Shown piece by piece: positions 33,379 to 41,707 of a stretch of 64,000 nt of DNA (within the stretch, counting starts at the first letter, position 1; each line of letters begins with the position of its first letter). The DNA is from Desulfobulbus propionicus (GTDB lineage: Bacteria; Desulfobacterota; Desulfobulbia; Desulfobulbales; Desulfobulbaceae), in contig PDTC01000022.1 of the NCBI GenBank assembly GCA_002748735.1, positions 1-64,000 on the forward strand. The letters run 5' to 3'. The position numbers and the translations under genes were made by a program. The notes under the pieces were generated by a model. That model worked only from the letters and a program-made list of their open reading frames with translations, did no database searches and had not been told where the DNA came from.

Positions 33379-33515
33379 AGCTGGTTGGCCGATGGCCCAG
33401 CTTTCTGGATGCCGGCCTTCGCCGGAATGACAGAGAGGGGTGGCGCAATGTCGGGTGTAGTGAACGAGGCCACAGTGCCGTCATCCCGGGCCTGGATCCA
33501 GAAAAGGCGGCCAAC
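33379..33515. repeat. Repeat array R2, left unit (before the GIY-YIG gene)
   Basis: One degenerate unit: hairpin A (GGATGCCGGCCTTCGCCGG) at about 33408, a long spacer including a GTAGTGAACGAGGCCACAG segment seen again in the main array, and a damaged hairpin B. It starts immediately after ribD and lies 40 bp from the GIY-YIG start. Confidence 0.85.
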
Positions 33516-33554
33516 CCTGCAAGTATTTGCAACCCCCTATCCACGATTGTCAAA

Positions 33555-33842
33555 ATGAAGCAGCCCGCCGTGTATATCCTGGCCAGCAAGAAAAATGGGA
33601 CACTCTATGTTGGTGTGACATCGAATCTTGCCAAACGGGTCTGGGAGCACAAAAACGATGTTGGTAAAGGGTTTACCCGTCGATACCAGGTACACCGCCT
33701 GGTCTGGTACGAAGTACACGAAGGTATGGAAGCGGCCATTACCAGGGAAAAACGGATAAAAGGCTGGCAACGGAAGTGGAAAATTGCATTGATAGAACAA
33801 CAGAATCCGGACTGGGTTGACCTGTATGACACACTGGTTTGA
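33555..33842 (+). CDS. Single-domain GIY-YIG nuclease (COG2827/UPF0213-like)
   Basis: 95 residues. Stand-alone GIY-YIG endonuclease domain; biological role of this small family is not established. The two motifs are VYILAS (GIY) and TLYVGVTSN (YIG). The conserved Arg (KRVWEHK) and the metal-binding Glu (AITREKRIKGW) follow. It ends with the family's NPDWVDLY. No clear ribosome-binding site precedes the ATG. The gene is embedded in array R2, with repeat units 40 bp on both sides, which suggests a link to the repeats (see findings). Confidence 0.9.
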   Translation: MKQPAVYILASKKNGTLYVGVTSNLAKRVWEHKNDVGKGFTRRYQVHRLVWYEVHEGMEAAITREKRIKGWQRKWKIALIEQQNPDWVDLYDTLV

Positions 33843-33874
33843 TGGAGGGAAAAAGTACTGCCAGCGTGTTAAAG

Positions 33875-35350
33875 GGATTTCCTGGATGCCGGCTTTCGCC
33901 GGAATGACAAATTGCTGTCATCCCGGGCTTGACCCGGGATCCATAAAGGTTGGGGCTTACCGGAAAGTTTCGCTTCCCTGGATGCCGGCTTTCGCCGGAA
34001 TGACAAGAGAAGTGCCACAATGACGCAGCATCGTCATCCCGGGCTTGACCCGGGATCCATAAAGGTCGGGGCTTTGCCGGGAACTTCCGTTTCCTGGATG
34101 CCGGCCTTCGCCGGAATGACAAGAGAGGTGGCGGAATGTCGAGTGTAGTGAACGAGGGCACAGTGCTGTCATCCCGGGCTTGACCCGGGATCCATAAAGG
34201 TTGGGGCCTTACCGGGAAGTTCGGTTTCCCTGGATTCCGGCTTTCGCCGGAATGACAGAGGGGTGCCACAATGACGCAGTGCCGTCATCCCGGGCTTGAC
34301 CCGGGATCCATAACGGTTGGGCCTTACCGGGAACTTCCGCTTCCCTGGATGCCGGCTTTCGCCGGAATGACGAATTGCTGTCATCCCGGGCTTGCCCCGG
34401 GATCCAGAAAAGGTTGGGGCTTTGCCGGGAACTTCCGCTTCCTGGATGCCGGCTTTCGCCGGAATGACAGAGAAGTGTGGCGAGGGCAGCATCGTCATCC
34501 CGGGCTTGACCCGGGATCCATAAAGGTTGGGGCGTTACCGGGAAGTTCGGCTTCCCTGGATTCCGGCTTTCGCCGGAATGACGCAGTGCTGTCATCCCGG
34601 GCCTGACCCGGGATCCAGAAAGGTTGGGCCTTACCGGGAAGTTCCGTTTTCTGGATTCCGGCCTTCGCCGGAATGACAAGAGAAGTGCCACAATGACGCA
34701 GTGTCGTCATCCCGGGCTTGCCCCGGGATCCATAAAGGTTGGGGCGTTACCGGAAAGTTCCGCTTCCCTGGATTCCGGCTTTCGCCGGAATGACGAATTG
34801 CTGTCATCCCGGGCCTGACCCGGGATCCATAAAGGTTGGGGCTTACCGGGAAGTTCGGCTTCCCTGGATTCCGGCTTTCGCCGGAATGACAGAGAGAGGT
34901 GCCACAATGACGAATTGTCGTCATCCCGGGCTTGCCCCGGGATCCATAAAAGGTCGGGCGGGGCCTTACCGGGAAGTTCGGCTTCCTGGATTCCGGCCTT
35001 CGCCGGAATGACAAATTGCTGTCATCCCGGGCTTGCCCCGGGATCCATAGAGGTTGGGGCCTTACCGGGAAGTTCAGCTTCCTGGATTCCGGCTTTCGCC
35101 GGAATGACGAATTGTCGTCATCCCGGGCTTGACCCGGGATCCATAGAGGTCGGGACGTTATCGGAAAGTTCGGCTTCTCTGGATGCCGGCTTTCGCCGGA
35201 ATGACAGAGAGGGGTAGCGGAATGTCGGGTGTGGTGAACGAGGCCACAGCATCGTCATCCCGGGCTTGCCCCGGGATCCATAGAGATTGGGCCTTACCGG
35301 AAAGTTCCGCTTCCTGGATGCCGGCTTGCCCCGGAATGACAGAGAGCTGT
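33875..35350. repeat. Repeat array R2, main block
   Basis: Roughly 13 tandem units of 95-135 bp fill nearly all of the 1.66 kb between the GIY-YIG gene and the first DUF1566 gene. Each unit has hairpin B (CATCCCGGGCTTGACCCGGG), a linker (GGTTGGGGCCTTACCGGGAA), hairpin A (GGATTCCGGCTTTCGCCGGA) and a variable spacer. Stem positions vary in compensating fashion (CTTGACC/CTTGCCC, TTCC/TGCC). Some spacers hold a longer GTAGTGAACGAGG segment. All reading frames here are repeat artefacts. About 150 AT-rich bp then lead to an AAGGAGG site. Confidence 0.95.
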
Positions 35351-35506: not shown

Positions 35507-36211
35507 ATGCAACACAGGCTACTCATCCTTTTAACAATTTTCTGGGCGTCAGGTGCCTGGGCCGGCAACAACGCTGGCGGTGCCTTTACTACCTGGCCGG
35601 ATACCGGGCAGAGCACATGCTACGATAACAGTGGTGAAATTCCCTGTCCGCAGGAAGGTGAGGCATTTTACGGCCAGGACGCCCAGTACCAGGGGCCGGT
35701 TCGTTCCTATACCAAACTGGATAGCAGTGGCAATCCATTGCCGGAAGATGCTACGAGCTGGGTTATGGTGCGCGACAATGTGACCGGTCTGATCTGGGAG
35801 GTAAAGGAGAACGGCGATGGAACTGCAGAGTACAGTAACCCCCATGACGCCGACAACACCTATACCTGGTGTGATACCAATCCTGATACCAACGGCGGTG
35901 ACCAGGGCACCTGCGGCGATCATGACACCGAGGAGTTTATCAATGCCTTGAACAGCGCTAACTTTGGCGGCTACAATGACTGGCGGCTGCCCACCATCAA
36001 AGAGCTGGCAACCCTTGTTGACTACGCCAAATACAATCCGGCCATTGATACGGCCTTTTTCCCTGATACACACTCGGCCACTTACTGGTCGGCTACTACT
36101 CTCGCGCTCGATACCAGCTTCGCATGGAACGTGCATTTCGACTACGGCTACGACGGCAGCCTCAATAAGTCGTACAGCAACCATGTGCGCGCTGTTCGCG
36201 CCGGACAGTAG
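35507..36211 (+). CDS. Secreted Lcl/DUF1566-domain protein, probable DGR target 1
   Basis: 234 residues. Signal peptide about 1-19 (cleavage near GAWA-GNN), then a Cys-containing N-terminal part and a C-terminal DUF1566/Lcl domain. That domain starts at VTGLIWEVK, with YNDWRLPTIKEL and ATYWSATT. The last 46 codons (36071-36209) form a candidate variable region, ending with a block of 26 bp identical to the next gene. AAGGAGG precedes the ATG. The domain is C-type-lectin-like in related families, so a ligand-binding surface is likely; the ligand is unknown. Confidence 0.85.
   Translation: MQHRLLILLTIFWASGAWAGNNAGGAFTTWPDTGQSTCYDNSGEIPCPQEGEAFYGQDAQYQGPVRSYTKLDSSGNPLPEDATSWVMVRDNVTGLIWEVKENGDGTAEYSNPHDADNTYTWCDTNPDTNGGDQGTCGDHDTEEFINALNSANFGGYNDWRLPTIKELATLVDYAKYNPAIDTAFFPDTHSATYWSATTLALDTSFAWNVHFDYGYDGSLNKSYSNHVRAVRAGQ
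36071..36209 (+). other. Candidate DGR variable region VR1
   Basis: Differs from VR2 (36677-36818) at about 15 clearly aligned codons, nearly always in positions 1 and 2 only, with third base C or T conserved (for example CAC/CGC, ACT/TAT, CTC/GGC, TTC/AGC, AAC/TAC). The 3' 26 bp (36184-36209) are identical to VR2 and would be the IMH-like anchor. The stop codon follows directly. Confidence 0.7.
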
Positions 36212-36263
36212 GTTGATACTTGGAACCTTTGGCTCTTTTGCGGGGTGCTGCTTATGGCGCGTT

Positions 36264-36380
36264 ATGAGCATTTACCAATCTATAAAAAGGGAATGGAACT
36301 GGCTGGTTATCGTGAGCATTGCGTCCGCGGTTTCAGCCGGTATCATTACATACAGTGAGGAAACATATGAAACAGAATAG
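36264..36380 (+). CDS. Possible 38-residue membrane peptide
   Basis: An ATG at 36264 opens a 38-codon frame with one hydrophobic stretch (WLVIVSIASAVSAGIIT) and an acidic tail. It ends 14 nt inside the broken signal-peptide frame of the next gene. No good ribosome-binding site and no recognised family; it may be chance. Confidence 0.25.
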   Translation: MSIYQSIKREWNWLVIVSIASAVSAGIITYSEETYETE

Positions 36381-36435
36381 ACATGTACTGCTGTCCCTGC
36401 TGACATACCGTTCCTGCATATGCGGCATGTATTGA
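36367..36435 (+). pseudogene. Out-of-frame signal peptide of the large DUF1566 protein
   Basis: ATG 36367, preceded by GTGAGGA, encodes MKQNRHVLLSLLTYRS and then stops at 36433. In the frame one nucleotide over, the sequence reads VPAYAACIDNGDGTVTDTATG directly into the long downstream protein. That is a classic signal-peptide cleavage site followed by the DUF1566 start. A stop at 36401-36403 blocks that frame upstream. So a single-nucleotide gain (or 2-nt loss) between about 36403 and 36425 separates the leader from its protein. Confidence 0.65.
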
Positions 36436-36475
36436 TAATGGTGACGGCACGGTCACGGATACGGCAACCGGGTTG

Positions 36476-39400
36476 ATGTGGGCACAGGCCAGTGCTGATA
36501 CTGACAACGATGGAACCCCTAATAAGATGAGCTGGCAAGAGGCCCTGGCCTGGTGTGAAAACCTTGAACTGGCAGGGTATACCGACTGGCGGCTCCCCAA
36601 TATCAATGAGCTGCGCTCCCTTGTCGATGACTCCAGATATAATCCGGCCATCGATACCACCTTTTTCCCTGATACACGCTCGGCCTATTACTGGTCGGCG
36701 ACTACTCGCGCGGGCTATGCCAGCAGCGCATGGTACGTGCATTTCGGCAGCGGCTACGGCGGCCTCAGCTACCATAAGTCGGCCTACTACCGTGTGCGCG
36801 CTGTTCGCGCCGGACAGTCTTCGGTAATTGGGCCATTGGATCCTTTGAGTATTTCCCTTTCCGCGACGACGGTGGCGCCAGGCAATACGCTTACCCTGCA
36901 GGGAGAAGGGTTTACTGCCAATGGAAGTATCGAGTTAACCTTTATACATCCTGATACAAGTGCCTCAACAACCACAGTACAGGCTGATTCCTACGGATAT
37001 CTGGAGTATCAGTGGCAGGTACTGCCGCAAAGCGAGGAAGGGCAATATACAGTTACGGCAAGAGATGTTACTACTGATCGTTATACCTCACCATTATCCT
37101 ACACTGTAGACCAGGGTGTCACCATTGTAACCGGAGTGTACAGGGCTGCCAATGTGGGGGTGATTGGCAATGAATTTTCCCTTTGGATGGATATCTCTGT
37201 TGATGGTCAGGCAACTGCTGATTTTTGCAATCAGTACAGCACTGAAATAACCGGTACCGACGGTATGCCGGTGACAACCCTGGGCTGTGAGCATCAGGGT
37301 GCAGGAACCTATGTACCAAACTCCTCTCGTTATAAATTCACTTTTCGTATAGTGCCAACAGGACATGCTGCCTGGTTTGAAGGTGGCAAGATGACCTTTA
37401 TTGATAAGAGTAACCCTGCGATAAGGCATGAAGTTAGGGGCCTTGGACAGCTGGATATTTATGGCACCACCTTTGATATGCGCTACCATGCCTGGAAGTT
37501 TGAAAATGCACACTGGACTGTGCCTCAAAATTTGATAGTTGGTTTTAGTGATTTTCCCCAAAATGAATATGCCTGGTTGATTGATAGTCTTAAAAAATTC
37601 CTGCCTAAGGAAAAAATCGGTGCACTGATTACAGATTTTGGTGAATTTAATATTTATCATTTGGGTTTTGTTCCTGTTTTACCTTATTATGATTCTGCTA
37701 ATGGGGGCTGTTTTGGCATGGCAACGGTTGCCATTGCCAACTTTATCCATGATGGTGCGACCTGGGGCATGGGAGGTTTGGAAGATTTTGATGATGAGAT
37801 TAATGCCTTCTGGCCCACAGGAGCAACCCAGGCAGCCGGACCATTCAAGCCCCTTGATGATCAAGTAGGAAAGTACAACTGGAATGTACAGTCAGCCAAA
37901 AAAATTATGTACTATCATGCCGCTCAGGAGTACTTCAAAGGAGGTTCTCATGGCGTAGGTTCTATGGAGAACAAAGATTTTTTCCCAGATTCTCGATTAG
38001 AAACACTAAAAAAAGGAAGACCTATTTCTTTTGGATTTCGTTTGGCTGAGGGGAGTCATCGAGTAGCAATTGTACAGGCAATTACCTTAAATGGGTGCGA
38101 TTTTTATACTGTCTGGGACAACAATCAACCTCTAAATCCAGAAAGAGAGTACAGTCCATACCAGCAGTGGGTCGTAACTAATCCAGGAGGAATGTATAAA
38201 AAATTAGGTAATGGTACGTCGATTTATCGGGTCAACAAAACAGATGGGTCTTTGAGCAAGAGAATGTACGATATTAAAAAGGCCTTTATTATTTCTCCAG
38301 ACCAAGAATCAGATACCTTCAATATTTATAACCTGCGAAACGATAAACTGGCCAGCCAGCAAAAGAAAGAATCTGGTGACGGGAAAAGGGACTCGGAAAA
38401 CCAGGTACGAAACGACCATCCTGACCATATTGTTATTCAGACGCTGGGTATAAATGTTGACAGTGTACAAACCACCGGCGGCCAGCCTGTTCCTTTGATT
38501 CCCAACGGGTCACTTGAGACCGACGACAGTGCTGTTATTGTAACAACTACTGGTGGTATGTACAATGCCATCTATCTGCCGGTTACCAATGATTACCGCA
38601 TGGACATAACCAAGCAGGAAGATATTGACAATCCAAAGATCTATATAAAATTTGGCCAGACCAACGGCCAGGTCAAACAACGTCACCATGATGATCTTGG
38701 CCTGCCTGTTGGTGCTGCAACACAGATGTATTTTCAGGTTGGACGCACCAACAGCGATATGCAGGTGCATGTGATTGGCGGTGCGGCACAGGATCCGGTT
38801 TTTGAAGGTCTTGCTACGCCGCCGTTGTTGCCGCCGGTTAACTTTCGCGGCCTGTATCAGGCAGACGGTGTGCGGCTGAACTGGAGCACTCCGGAAGATC
38901 CTGCCTTTGATCATGTGGTGGTGGTACGTAAAGAAGGCGGATATCCTGCCTCACCTGCAGATGGAGAGGTGCTCTATTCAGGGACTGGTGAAGAAATACT
39001 GGATACAAATGCTCAGCAAAATCATCTCCATTTTTACAGTGCGTTCAGTGTAGATGGCAGCGGAGATCCATCAGAAGCGGTCAATCTGTGGATTGATACC
39101 CGTAAATACAGCATTGAAGGAACTGTAAGCAAGACCGACGGCACTCCGCTGTCTGGTGTGTTGCTCGAACTGCAGGGACCGGATGTTGAAAGCCAGTATA
39201 CGGCAGTTACCGGCCCGGATGGACGATACACCATTGCCAATATTCAAAATAATCCCTACACCTTGTCCGCGCATAAGTTTGGGTACGGTTTTGGCAGTAA
39301 TCCACGTACGGTAGACATCAATGTTGCCAACCAGATAGAAAATTTTGCTGATGGAACCGGAGTGCCGGCAGCCCGAATACTGTTTTCGCGATCACAGGTG

Positions 39401-40126
39401 TATACGGGTAACACCTATACCCTTCGCTGGGGCTATGCCAACATGCCCGATAACGAACGTGTGAACATCCTGGTCAATCCGGGGAATCAGGAGTATCTTG
39501 TGGGCACGGATATTCCCCTCAAAGCCGGGGAATGCCCGTGGCAGGTTAACCAGGTACAACCGGCAAATTCAGATGAGGTGACCGTTCTTATCAAGAGAAC
39601 CAGTGATAATGTCGTACTTCACGCTGAAACGCTGTCTCTGGAGATAGAACCGTATGACAGTGATGCAGACGGGTTGCCCAACGAACTTGAAGACGGGTCT
39701 TGTACCAACAAATTGGATGCTGATAGCGACGATGATGGCCTTGCCGACGGGGTGGAAGACGCCAACCATAATGGTCAAGTTGATACTGGCGAGACAAACC
39801 CCTGCAGCGCTGACAGTGACAATGACGGGATTCAGGACGGTACAGAGCTTGGCATAACTGCACCTGTACCTGATCCTGATGGCAGCGGGCCGCTTCTGGG
39901 CACTGATACTTCAATCTTCCAGCCAGACCTTGATCCGGCAACCACAACTGATCCCTTGAACGCGGATACCGATGATGACGGCGTTGAGGATGGCACAGAA
40001 GATGGTAACCTGAATGGGCGGTTGGATGAAGGGGAGACAGATCCCCTGGATGCGAGTTCATACCCGGGAGGTACTGATTTTTACTGGCCGTTGTTTCTGC
40101 CTGCCATAACAACCGACCAGCAGTAG
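36476..40126 (+). CDS. Giant multidomain protein: DUF1566 (VR2), Ig-like, papain-like protease, FN3-like, CarboxypepD-reg-like, TSP3
   Basis: About 1,216 residues from the first in-frame ATG; the real protein probably started at 36367 before a frameshift. Order: DUF1566/Lcl domain (1-115) with variable region at 68-114; Ig-like (115-205); a middle region with a possible papain-fold protease, Cys412 in NGGCFGMAT, His528 in GSHRVAIVQ and Asp548/Asn549 in VWDNNQP. Then FN3-like (about 782-872), a carboxypeptidase-regulatory-like domain (878-965, GTVSKTDGTPLSGV), and thrombospondin type 3 calcium repeats (1060-1195, DSDADGLPNE, DADSDDDGLADG). It ends PLFLPAI. Likely a secreted surface protein. 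The middle (37.6-38.4 kb) is visibly more AT-rich than its neighbours, suggesting transfer. No close family known to me. Confidence 0.8.
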   Translation: MWAQASADTDNDGTPNKMSWQEALAWCENLELAGYTDWRLPNINELRSLVDDSRYNPAIDTTFFPDTRSAYYWSATTRAGYASSAWYVHFGSGYGGLSYHKSAYYRVRAVRAGQSSVIGPLDPLSISLSATTVAPGNTLTLQGEGFTANGSIELTFIHPDTSASTTTVQADSYGYLEYQWQVLPQSEEGQYTVTARDVTTDRYTSPLSYTVDQGVTIVTGVYRAANVGVIGNEFSLWMDISVDGQATADFCNQYSTEITGTDGMPVTTLGCEHQGAGTYVPNSSRYKFTFRIVPTGHAAWFEGGKMTFIDKSNPAIRHEVRGLGQLDIYGTTFDMRYHAWKFENAHWTVPQNLIVGFSDFPQNEYAWLIDSLKKFLPKEKIGALITDFGEFNIYHLGFVPVLPYYDSANGGCFGMATVAIANFIHDGATWGMGGLEDFDDEINAFWPTGATQAAGPFKPLDDQVGKYNWNVQSAKKIMYYHAAQEYFKGGSHGVGSMENKDFFPDSRLETLKKGRPISFGFRLAEGSHRVAIVQAITLNGCDFYTVWDNNQPLNPEREYSPYQQWVVTNPGGMYKKLGNGTSIYRVNKTDGSLSKRMYDIKKAFIISPDQESDTFNIYNLRNDKLASQQKKESGDGKRDSENQVRNDHPDHIVIQTLGINVDSVQTTGGQPVPLIPNGSLETDDSAVIVTTTGGMYNAIYLPVTNDYRMDITKQEDIDNPKIYIKFGQTNGQVKQRHHDDLGLPVGAATQMYFQVGRTNSDMQVHVIGGAAQDPVFEGLATPPLLPPVNFRGLYQADGVRLNWSTPEDPAFDHVVVVRKEGGYPASPADGEVLYSGTGEEILDTNAQQNHLHFYSAFSVDGSGDPSEAVNLWIDTRKYSIEGTVSKTDGTPLSGVLLELQGPDVESQYTAVTGPDGRYTIANIQNNPYTLSAHKFGYGFGSNPRTVDINVANQIENFADGTGVPAARILFSRSQVYTGNTYTLRWGYANMPDNERVNILVNPGNQEYLVGTDIPLKAGECPWQVNQVQPANSDEVTVLIKRTSDNVVLHAETLSLEIEPYDSDADGLPNELEDGSCTNKLDADSDDDGLADGVEDANHNGQVDTGETNPCSADSDNDGIQDGTELGITAPVPDPDGSGPLLGTDTSIFQPDLDPATTTDPLNADTDDDGVEDGTEDGNLNGRLDEGETDPLDASSYPGGTDFYWPLFLPAITTDQQ
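36677..36818 (+). other. Candidate DGR variable region VR2 (internal, near N-terminus)
   Basis: Partner of VR1, one codon longer. Variable codons are NNC/NNT with constant third base, interleaved with invariant codons for the scaffold (WSA, AW, VHF, GY, KS). The 3' end 36793-36818 is identical to VR1 over 26 bp, after which similarity stops abruptly. Unlike VR1 it is followed by over 1,100 codons in frame. Confidence 0.7.
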
Positions 40127-40184: not shown

Positions 40185-40212
40185 TGTTGCTTGTCTGGCA
40201 GGAGGCTGACAG

Positions 40213-40770
40213 GGTGGGAATCCCTGGATTCCGGCTTTCGCCGGAATGACAGAGAGAGGTGCCACAATGACGAATTGTCGTCATCCCGGGCTTGCCCCGG
40301 GATCCATAAAAGGTCGGGCCTTACCAGGAAGTTCCGCTTCCCTGGATTCCGGCTTTCGCCGGAATGACGAATTGCCGTCATCCCGGGCTTGACCAGGGAT
40401 CCATAAAAGTCGGGGGCTTACCGGAAAGTTCGGTTTCCCTGGATTCCGGCTTTCGCCGGAATGACGAATTGTTGTCATCCCGGGCTTGCCCCGGGATCCA
40501 GAAAAGGTTGGGGCCTTACCGGAAAGTTCCGCTTCCCTGGATGCCGGCTTTCGCCGGAATGACGAATTGCCGTCATCCCGGGCTTGACCCGGGATCCATA
40601 GAGGTTGGGGCCTTACCGGGAAGTTCGGCTTCCCTGGATTCCGGCTTTCGCCGGAATGACGAATTGTTGTCATCCCGGGCTTGCCCCGGGATCCAGAAAA
40701 GGTTGGGGCCTTACCGGGAAGTTCCGCTTCCTGGATTCCGGCCTTCGCCGGAATGACAGAGAGGTATCGC
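40213..40770. repeat. Repeat array R3
   Basis: Six A hairpins (TCCGGCTTTCGCCGGA) and five B hairpins (CCCGGGCTTGACCCGGG or CTTGCCC) in about 97-bp units, in the same orientation as R2. The 654 bp between the giant gene and the ParB-like gene hold only a terminator and this array. The array abuts the 3' end of the ParB-like gene within 10-15 bp. Confidence 0.95.
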
Positions 40771-40780
40771 GGGAAGTTCC

Positions 40781-41707
40781 TCAGGCAAGAATTTCCCTGA
40801 GTTTTGCCCATCTGTCAAGCAGGGCCTGGCGGTCGGCAAAGGTCAGGGTTAGGTGCAGCTCATCGGTTTCATAGCTTTTACTGGGATACAGCTGTTCGCC
40901 GTCCTGGAGCTGCAGACTGTGGCGAAACCGCTGGAACTCCTCATCGGCTGCCTGCCGTCTGGGATGGAGCTGCTTGTCAAGCCAGTTGAGGAGCAGGGTC
41001 GTCTGCTGGGGGATGTTGGCCTTTGCTGGCAGGCTTTCCTGCCAGGAGCGCAGCCGCCGGGCAAAGGGCAGACCGTCCCGCTTGCCTAGCTCAAAGGCAG
41101 CGTCAAACAGGAGTTGTTGTCTGGAACCGCCGAGGCCCAGGGCAGTCAGCAGGTTGATGACGGTTTGCTGGTCATCGGTACTGAGGCGGTTGAGCCGCCT
41201 GATATGCCTGAAATTGACAAGACCTGCATGGACAGCCAGCTGGATCGATGTATCGAGACTGAGGAGTTGGGCTAGTGTGTCCAGGGTGTTACGATTGGCA
41301 GGCAACTCAAGAGGGGGGAGCAGCTTCAGCAGCTCCTCCCTGGTGAGGAGCTGGGCAGCAGCGTCCATGATTCGCGCCTGCTGCACCGGGCTCAGTTCCG
41401 CTCCCAGCCGGGCATGGCGGATCAGCACGGTAAAGAGCAGCAACGGCGGACAGTCCTCGCGGACCACCTGACAGAGGATCTCCCTGTGTCCCTGTGCGCG
41501 CAGCAGGTCAATTCTTCGTCTGCCGGAAAGACAACGCAAGCCGTGCGCGGATGCCTGCACCAGTGGCGGCACCAGTAGACCTTCCTCGCGCAGGCGGACA
41601 GCGAGATCATCGGCAGGTTCTTCGCCCTCCGGGCGAAACTGCAGACTGCTCTGGGCAGCGGGCAGGGCGTCAAGGGCAAGGGCGTGGAACGTGGCTGTGG
41701 TTGACAC
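40781..41707 (-). CDS. ParB/Spo0J-like protein with N-terminal ParBc domain
   Basis: About 308 residues. The N-terminal part resembles the ParB/Srx fold: VRLREEGLLVPPLVQASAHGLRCLSGRRRIDLLRAQG, where CLSGRRR matches the usual (E)RR(W)xA region. A helical middle (LSPVQQARIMDAAAQLL) resembles the ParB DNA-binding part. The CTP-binding GxxRxxA motif is altered. No parA neighbour. The frame is open to a GTG at 41749, but that lies inside the upstream terminator hairpin; GTG 41707 is preferred, with no good ribosome-binding site. Function may be regulation, not chromosome segregation. Confidence 0.65.
   Translation of the reverse strand: MSTTATFHALALDALPAAQSSLQFRPEGEEPADDLAVRLREEGLLVPPLVQASAHGLRCLSGRRRIDLLRAQGHREILCQVVREDCPPLLLFTVLIRHARLGAELSPVQQARIMDAAAQLLTREELLKLLPPLELPANRNTLDTLAQLLSLDTSIQLAVHAGLVNFRHIRRLNRLSTDDQQTVINLLTALGLGGSRQQLLFDAAFELGKRDGLPFARRLRSWQESLPAKANIPQQTTLLLNWLDKQLHPRRQAADEEFQRFRHSLQLQDGEQLYPSKSYETDELHLTLTFADRQALLDRWAKLREILA

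Follow-up and report, generated by a model that had tools for sequence, protein, structure and literature searches.

Two neighboring DUF1566 genes carry the marks of a diversity-generating retroelement (DGR), and between them lies a truncated avd, the gene of a DGR accessory protein. A DGR cassette probably stood at this site; a recent deletion would have removed the remainder of avd, the template repeat and the reverse transcriptase (RT), leaving two diversified targets. The window (the whole 64,000-nt stretch of DNA that was analyzed) is contig C27:1-64000 of a draft genome of 1.81 Mb, assembled in 30 contigs and 85.6% complete. Its features are as follows:

35507..36211, + strand: target gene 1, an ORF of 234 aa with an Lcl_C (DUF1566) domain (Pfam PF07603, E=8.2e-36)
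36071..36209, + strand: variable repeat VR1, at the 3' end of target gene 1; the shared block begins at 36056
36184..36209, + strand: invariant 3' end of VR1, similar to an initiation of mutagenic homing (IMH) site; acceptor form, ends GGACAGT
36254..36358, + strand: truncated avd, 34 codons followed by TGA; homology ends near 36346
36347..36366, no strand: putative deletion junction, placed by comparison with loci L074, L076, L077 and L080; template, RT and the remainder of avd are missing
36404..40126, + strand: target gene 2, an open DUF1566 frame; ORF from TTG 36473, 1217 aa, with Lcl_C followed by about 1,100 aa
36677..36818, + strand: variable repeat VR2, internal in its protein, equal to VR1 plus one codon; the shared block begins at 36662
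36793..36818, + strand: invariant 3' end of VR2; acceptor form, ends GGACAGT

The Lcl_C/DUF1566 domain was found in both target genes by Pfam, and C-type-lectin-type ligand binding is predicted for it; a sequence-based search of solved structures gave a best match of E=0.61. DUF1566 is described as a common DGR target (PMC4159848, PMC6642488). A third Lcl_C gene of the same genome (L007, G000:C12:14435-14737) has another C-terminal end and shows no sign of the shared repeat.

Divergence between VR1 and VR2 is of an unusual kind. Over the 46 codons from CAC/CGC to CAG there are 12 first-, 12 second- and 1 third-position differences (counts end at CAG; inclusion of the codons past the shared 3' end gives 3 third-base differences), while the 30 codons aligned directly before them in both genes show 5, 3 and 9, respectively. 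Third-position changes thus make up 1 of the 25 differences between the repeats versus 9 of 17 upstream (Fisher p=4.3e-4). Realignment bore out the repeat coordinates and differences given by the first-pass annotation, as well as its observation that divergence just upstream is of the ordinary kind. It had counted about 15 changed codons; we found position-1/2 differences in 16 or 17 of 45 codons (the number varies with the placement of the additional VR2 codon), plus CAC/CGC just before. All the non-synonymous differences fall in codons with a final C or T, the third base being unchanged. The sole third-base difference, already noted at first pass, is GCT/GCG; none of four templates of related DGRs (see below) has adenine at this site, and the change could be an ordinary substitution or go back to an A that the lost template had there. 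The last ordinary difference upstream, GCC/ACC at 36053/36659, delimits the shared blocks 36056-36209 and 36662-36818. Also as annotated earlier, the final 26 bp are identical and similarity ends there.

The templates used for comparison came from a search for DGR RTs. The RT alignment A1 was built from eight RTs with adenine-biased repeat pairs nearby, taken from 10 candidate regions in genomes of the family; the regions L053 and L054 had no adenine-biased pair and were left out. Searched over the order, A1 yielded 31 strong places (scores of at least 270 bits, a threshold chosen at a gap in the score list), which are spread over 26 of the 257 genomes; 8 of these places (in seven genomes) are the ones that built A1. 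Adenine-biased template/VR pairs were seen in 23 of the 26 strong places obtained as loci; no such pair was seen in L065, L075 and L079. Four of the 23 loci target DUF1566 genes: L074, L076, L077 and L080. The order target-avd-template-RT is common to all four, with a second target 3' of the RT in L074, L077 and L080; L076 has a DUF1566 gene without the signature after the RT. A length difference between template and VR, of 3 bp, occurs in L077. The template repeats of the four relatives have the codon length of VR1; VR2 is one codon longer.

Differing bases of VR1 and VR2 were scored against these four DUF1566-type templates of the same order, a site being counted as an adenine site if at least one of the four has A (49 of 126 sites in 42 aligned codons); the templates are thus those of relatives, not the element's own. 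In the window pair, 21 of 22 differing bases fell on template adenines (p=1.5e-9); among the first- and second-position differences, all 21 were on adenine sites and none elsewhere (p=2.1e-7). Two confirmed VR pairs, each scored against the other three templates, gave 21/21 and 19/19, and a pair formed by a VR and a non-VR paralogue gave 21/50 (p=0.2). Intermediate pairs were also seen, with 16/23, 19/25 and 23/32 in G050, 25/39 in G003 and 20/29 in G031 (p from 1e-3 to 1e-5, above chance); since such pairs exist, a weaker adenine bias alone is no proof of a recent DGR. In this count, the window pair agrees with the confirmed VR pairs, not with the intermediate ones.

One could propose that no DGR was ever involved, and that, after a tandem duplication with gene conversion, selection favored variability at binding residues. 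Tandem Lcl_C genes are indeed common in the family, and pairs with a weaker bias of the same type occur, some of them in genomes with no detected DGR RT (G050, G031, G003 supplied such pairs; G003 carries a DGR RT with a different kind of template). Selection, however, leaves unexplained the near lack of third-base changes, the complete restriction of position-1/2 differences to adenine sites and the presence of the avd stub; we find this account hardly credible. The two genes as an ordinary paralogous Lcl_C pair were likewise rejected: pairs from G003, G080 and G234 show 13-26 third-base differences versus 1 here.

The 3' ends of the repeats tell template from acceptor. GGACAGT terminates all five confirmed VRs compared (two in L074, one in L076, two in L080); the templates of all four relatives end in GGAAAGT or GGATAGT. 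As both window copies end GGA CAG T, they are acceptors rather than templates. The exact 24-bp 3'-end pattern had no match in genome and viral contigs, and a search for a stem after the VR 3' ends found only 6-bp palindromes. Together, the adenine-site differences and the acceptor-form ends strongly support the identification of both DUF1566 genes as DGR targets, as the first-pass annotation had proposed.

In target gene 1, whose N-terminus resembles a signal peptide (by eye), the VR has its usual place at the 3' end. The VR of target gene 2 is followed by ~1,100 residues, in contrast to confirmed VRs of other genomes and viral contigs, which in 33 of 33 counted rows leave no more than 52 bp to the end of the open frame. 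The count, made in 30 loci (L045-L052, L061-L080, L098, L100) with the longest frame of the correct strand, gave 38 rows; L055-L060 (repeats of earlier loci) and L099 (same layout as L098) were left out. Five rows were dropped: L046 6108 (a template taken as repeat), L068 (no open frame), L064 (duplicate locus), L077 513 (second piece of one repeat) and L100 4948 (assigned to a wrong frame; the DUF1566 frame of L100 has its end at this place). The ~1,100 residues have relatives in 21 of the 257 genomes of the order, its own included, many of them matching the last part only. The C-terminus of gene 2 (window 40067-40126) reads ...FYWPLFLPAITTDQQ, and a DUF1566 protein of G031 (L009, G031:C169) ends ...FPWTMFLPAITGQ; perhaps these ends represent a shared C-terminal signal.

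The first-pass annotation had placed the template and the RT outside the window, and suggested a genome search for a ~140-bp template next to a DGR-type RT. Neither was found in the 85.6% complete draft. The DNA search for a template repeat returned the two VRs and chance-level matches of 14 and 36 bases; reverse transcriptase PF00078 had no match in the draft at E<=0.001, and the DGR-RT profile A1 none at E<=10. At the locus itself there is no RT and no template, and 34 codons are left of avd. Our first reading, that the core was merely absent from the draft, was revised after a profile of Avd proteins (A3) matched between the two targets; a location of the machinery elsewhere in the genome is not supported.

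Profile A3 matches the window's genome in one place, C27:36251-36355 (E=8.9e-9), the only match at E<=1; it is a short match, covering model positions 3-37 of 133. A3 was searched in five genomes: G234 and G037, which contributed to the profile, match at E below 1e-60, G088 matches only at E about 0.1, and no match was seen in G050. The stub consists of the first 31 or so Avd residues, followed by three other residues and the stop. Among five Avd proteins compared over the stub, that of L076 is the most similar, with 68% identity, and the other four show 35-59%; at the DNA level, identity to L076 is 83% over 58 bp. The distance from the target-gene stop to the avd start is 42 bp here versus 40 bp in L076. 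Accessory genes differ among DGRs. An Avd-type gene (bAvd PF22296) was present in all five DUF1566 cassettes scanned, three at or above the Pfam cut-off and two below it, and profile A3 identified L100 as a sixth DUF1566 cassette with Avd. With the stub lying between the two targets, this is likely the former site of the cassette core.

The comparison with the four related cassettes points the same way. They share with the window the target domain and the target-avd order, the differing bases of the window repeats fall on their template adenines, and the VRs compared in L074, L076 and L080 have the same acceptor 3' end. They differ in possessing a complete avd, template and RT, whereas the window, with the order target, avd stub, target, has only the stub and one VR internal in a long protein. 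Two viral contigs from IMG/VR, L098 and L099, also have two tandem DUF1566 targets, followed by avd, template and RT; unlike in the window, both targets are upstream of the core, and the core is present. A further IMG/VR contig, L100, has three DUF1566 VRs (L098 and L099 have two each); in it the motif scan saw a template and no RT. DUF1566 relatives in the genome contig collection gave 26 loci, none with an adenine-biased template/VR pair seen.

The short junction may, of course, be an artefact of assembly or binning, or belong to one strain of a mixed population, the core still being present between both genes in the living organism. The draft state of the genome, in 30 contigs, counts against the deletion, and the VRs look freshly written, as would be expected if the machinery were still present. 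However, the putative junction is separated from VR1 by about 140 bp and from VR2 by about 300 bp and is outside the repeats that usually mislead assemblers, and no contig of the assembly carries the template, the RT or the remaining part of avd. We consider an intact core unlikely.

A second complete DGR, residing in a genome part missing from the assembly or in a mobile element, could still write both VRs in trans. Remote targets and possible action in trans have been reported (PMC10907252, PMC7517822, PMC4891356), and viral contigs L098 and L099, of the same layout as each other, carry a DUF1566 DGR. On the other hand, neither template nor RT is in the assembled 85.6% of the genome, the phage collection gave no match to the target domain, and the avd stub suggests a cassette at this very site, which makes a second one unneeded; such a source is very unlikely. 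The plasmid search returned 65 records, all at <60% identity. Nine of ten neighboring proteins scanned had Pfam matches, including a FabF-type synthase, serine hydroxymethyltransferase, NrdR, RibD and enolase; a neighborhood of this kind looks like chromosome, not like phage.

Imperfect repeat arrays, with copies often about 97 bp apart (GTCATCCCGGGC...GCCGGAATGAC), were seen at window 33404-35341 and 40193-40794; they flank the DGR locus on both sides, and the two target genes sit island-like between them.

We thus return to the loss of the core at this site as the best explanation. The ancestral cassette would have carried, on one strand, target gene 1, avd, the template repeat, the RT and target gene 2. 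Reverse transcription of the template with errors at its adenines would have rewritten the 3' part of the Lcl_C (DUF1566) region of the two genes, with the shared 3' end as the starting point if the retrohoming mechanism of known DGRs applies here. A deletion would then have taken the last three quarters of avd together with the template and the RT, leaving the 34-codon stub. The deletion is presumed recent because VR1 and VR2 have almost no ordinary changes; the repeats would now be frozen. The extra codon of VR2 counts against a single template and would need slippage. The leader of gene 2 shows another irregularity: ATG 36367 is out of frame and runs to a stop, and the DUF1566 frame opens only at 36404. 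This frame break, near 36401, may be a part of the same damage or a sequence error.

Several targets served by one template are not unusual: multiple VRs were reported in 271 of 948 non-redundant DGRs, 216 of the 271 with one template (PMC6642488), and several targets per template in about a seventh in another survey (PMC3521204). Remote targets and incomplete DGR loci have been described as well (PMC10907252, PMC8144416). DGR remnants devoid of a core are already known. In Treponema denticola isolates (PMC4891356), as here, targets with template-like VRs outlive the loss of the core, with no RT or template; that is a different organism, and the description we draw on mentions no avd stub marking loss in place. 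The cyanobacterial gene all3226 (PMC7517822) is a paralogue with remnant homology to a template and no RT nearby; it is a single dispersed paralogue, whereas the window has two targets flanking an empty site. To these known remnants the present locus adds a readable scar in place and fresh repeats.

Other genomes carry repeats that may be relevant here. In G050, a 989-aa open frame (L176, contig C90, 9112-12078) contains four tandem Lcl_C domains, and a 515-aa open frame (L177, contig C55, 7855-9399) contains two. Their repeat pairs, with 3-9 third-base differences each, look like partly decayed DGR targets; no DGR-RT profile match was found at E<=1 in this genome, which is 98% complete. In G088 (L156-L158, L179-L184 and others), one DUF1566 repeat has 13 matches genome-wide, the query included, two of them short and tail-only. 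Of the 12 repeats extracted, 3 have the end GGCGGACAGTGATTTTG, which extends beyond the stop codon, and another 5 end in a close variant of it. No template was recognized in G088 and no DGR-RT match was found there at E<=1e-25; a single partial RT fragment is located at the end of a contig. A second genome of the window's genus was not found among the 73 family genomes searched.

The DUF1566 genes of at least two other genomes, G050 and G088, with weaker, older-looking DGR marks and no detected DGR RT, are behind a further reading. One could speculate that loss of the core was an adaptive step fixing a useful pair of binding variants, that such losses recur in the lineage, and that DGRs are temporary mutators removed by deletion; we hold this to be rather improbable. 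For the cyanobacterial system, the authors suggest removal of the machinery once a good variant has been found (PMC7517822).

If the core was indeed deleted here, the locus would present a DGR soon after it lost its engine, at a stage when the scar is still legible, and it would bear on the open question of whether diversifiers get removed after a good variant has been found. It would also suggest that DGR targets can be recognized without a template or RT of their own, by means of the template adenines of their relatives.
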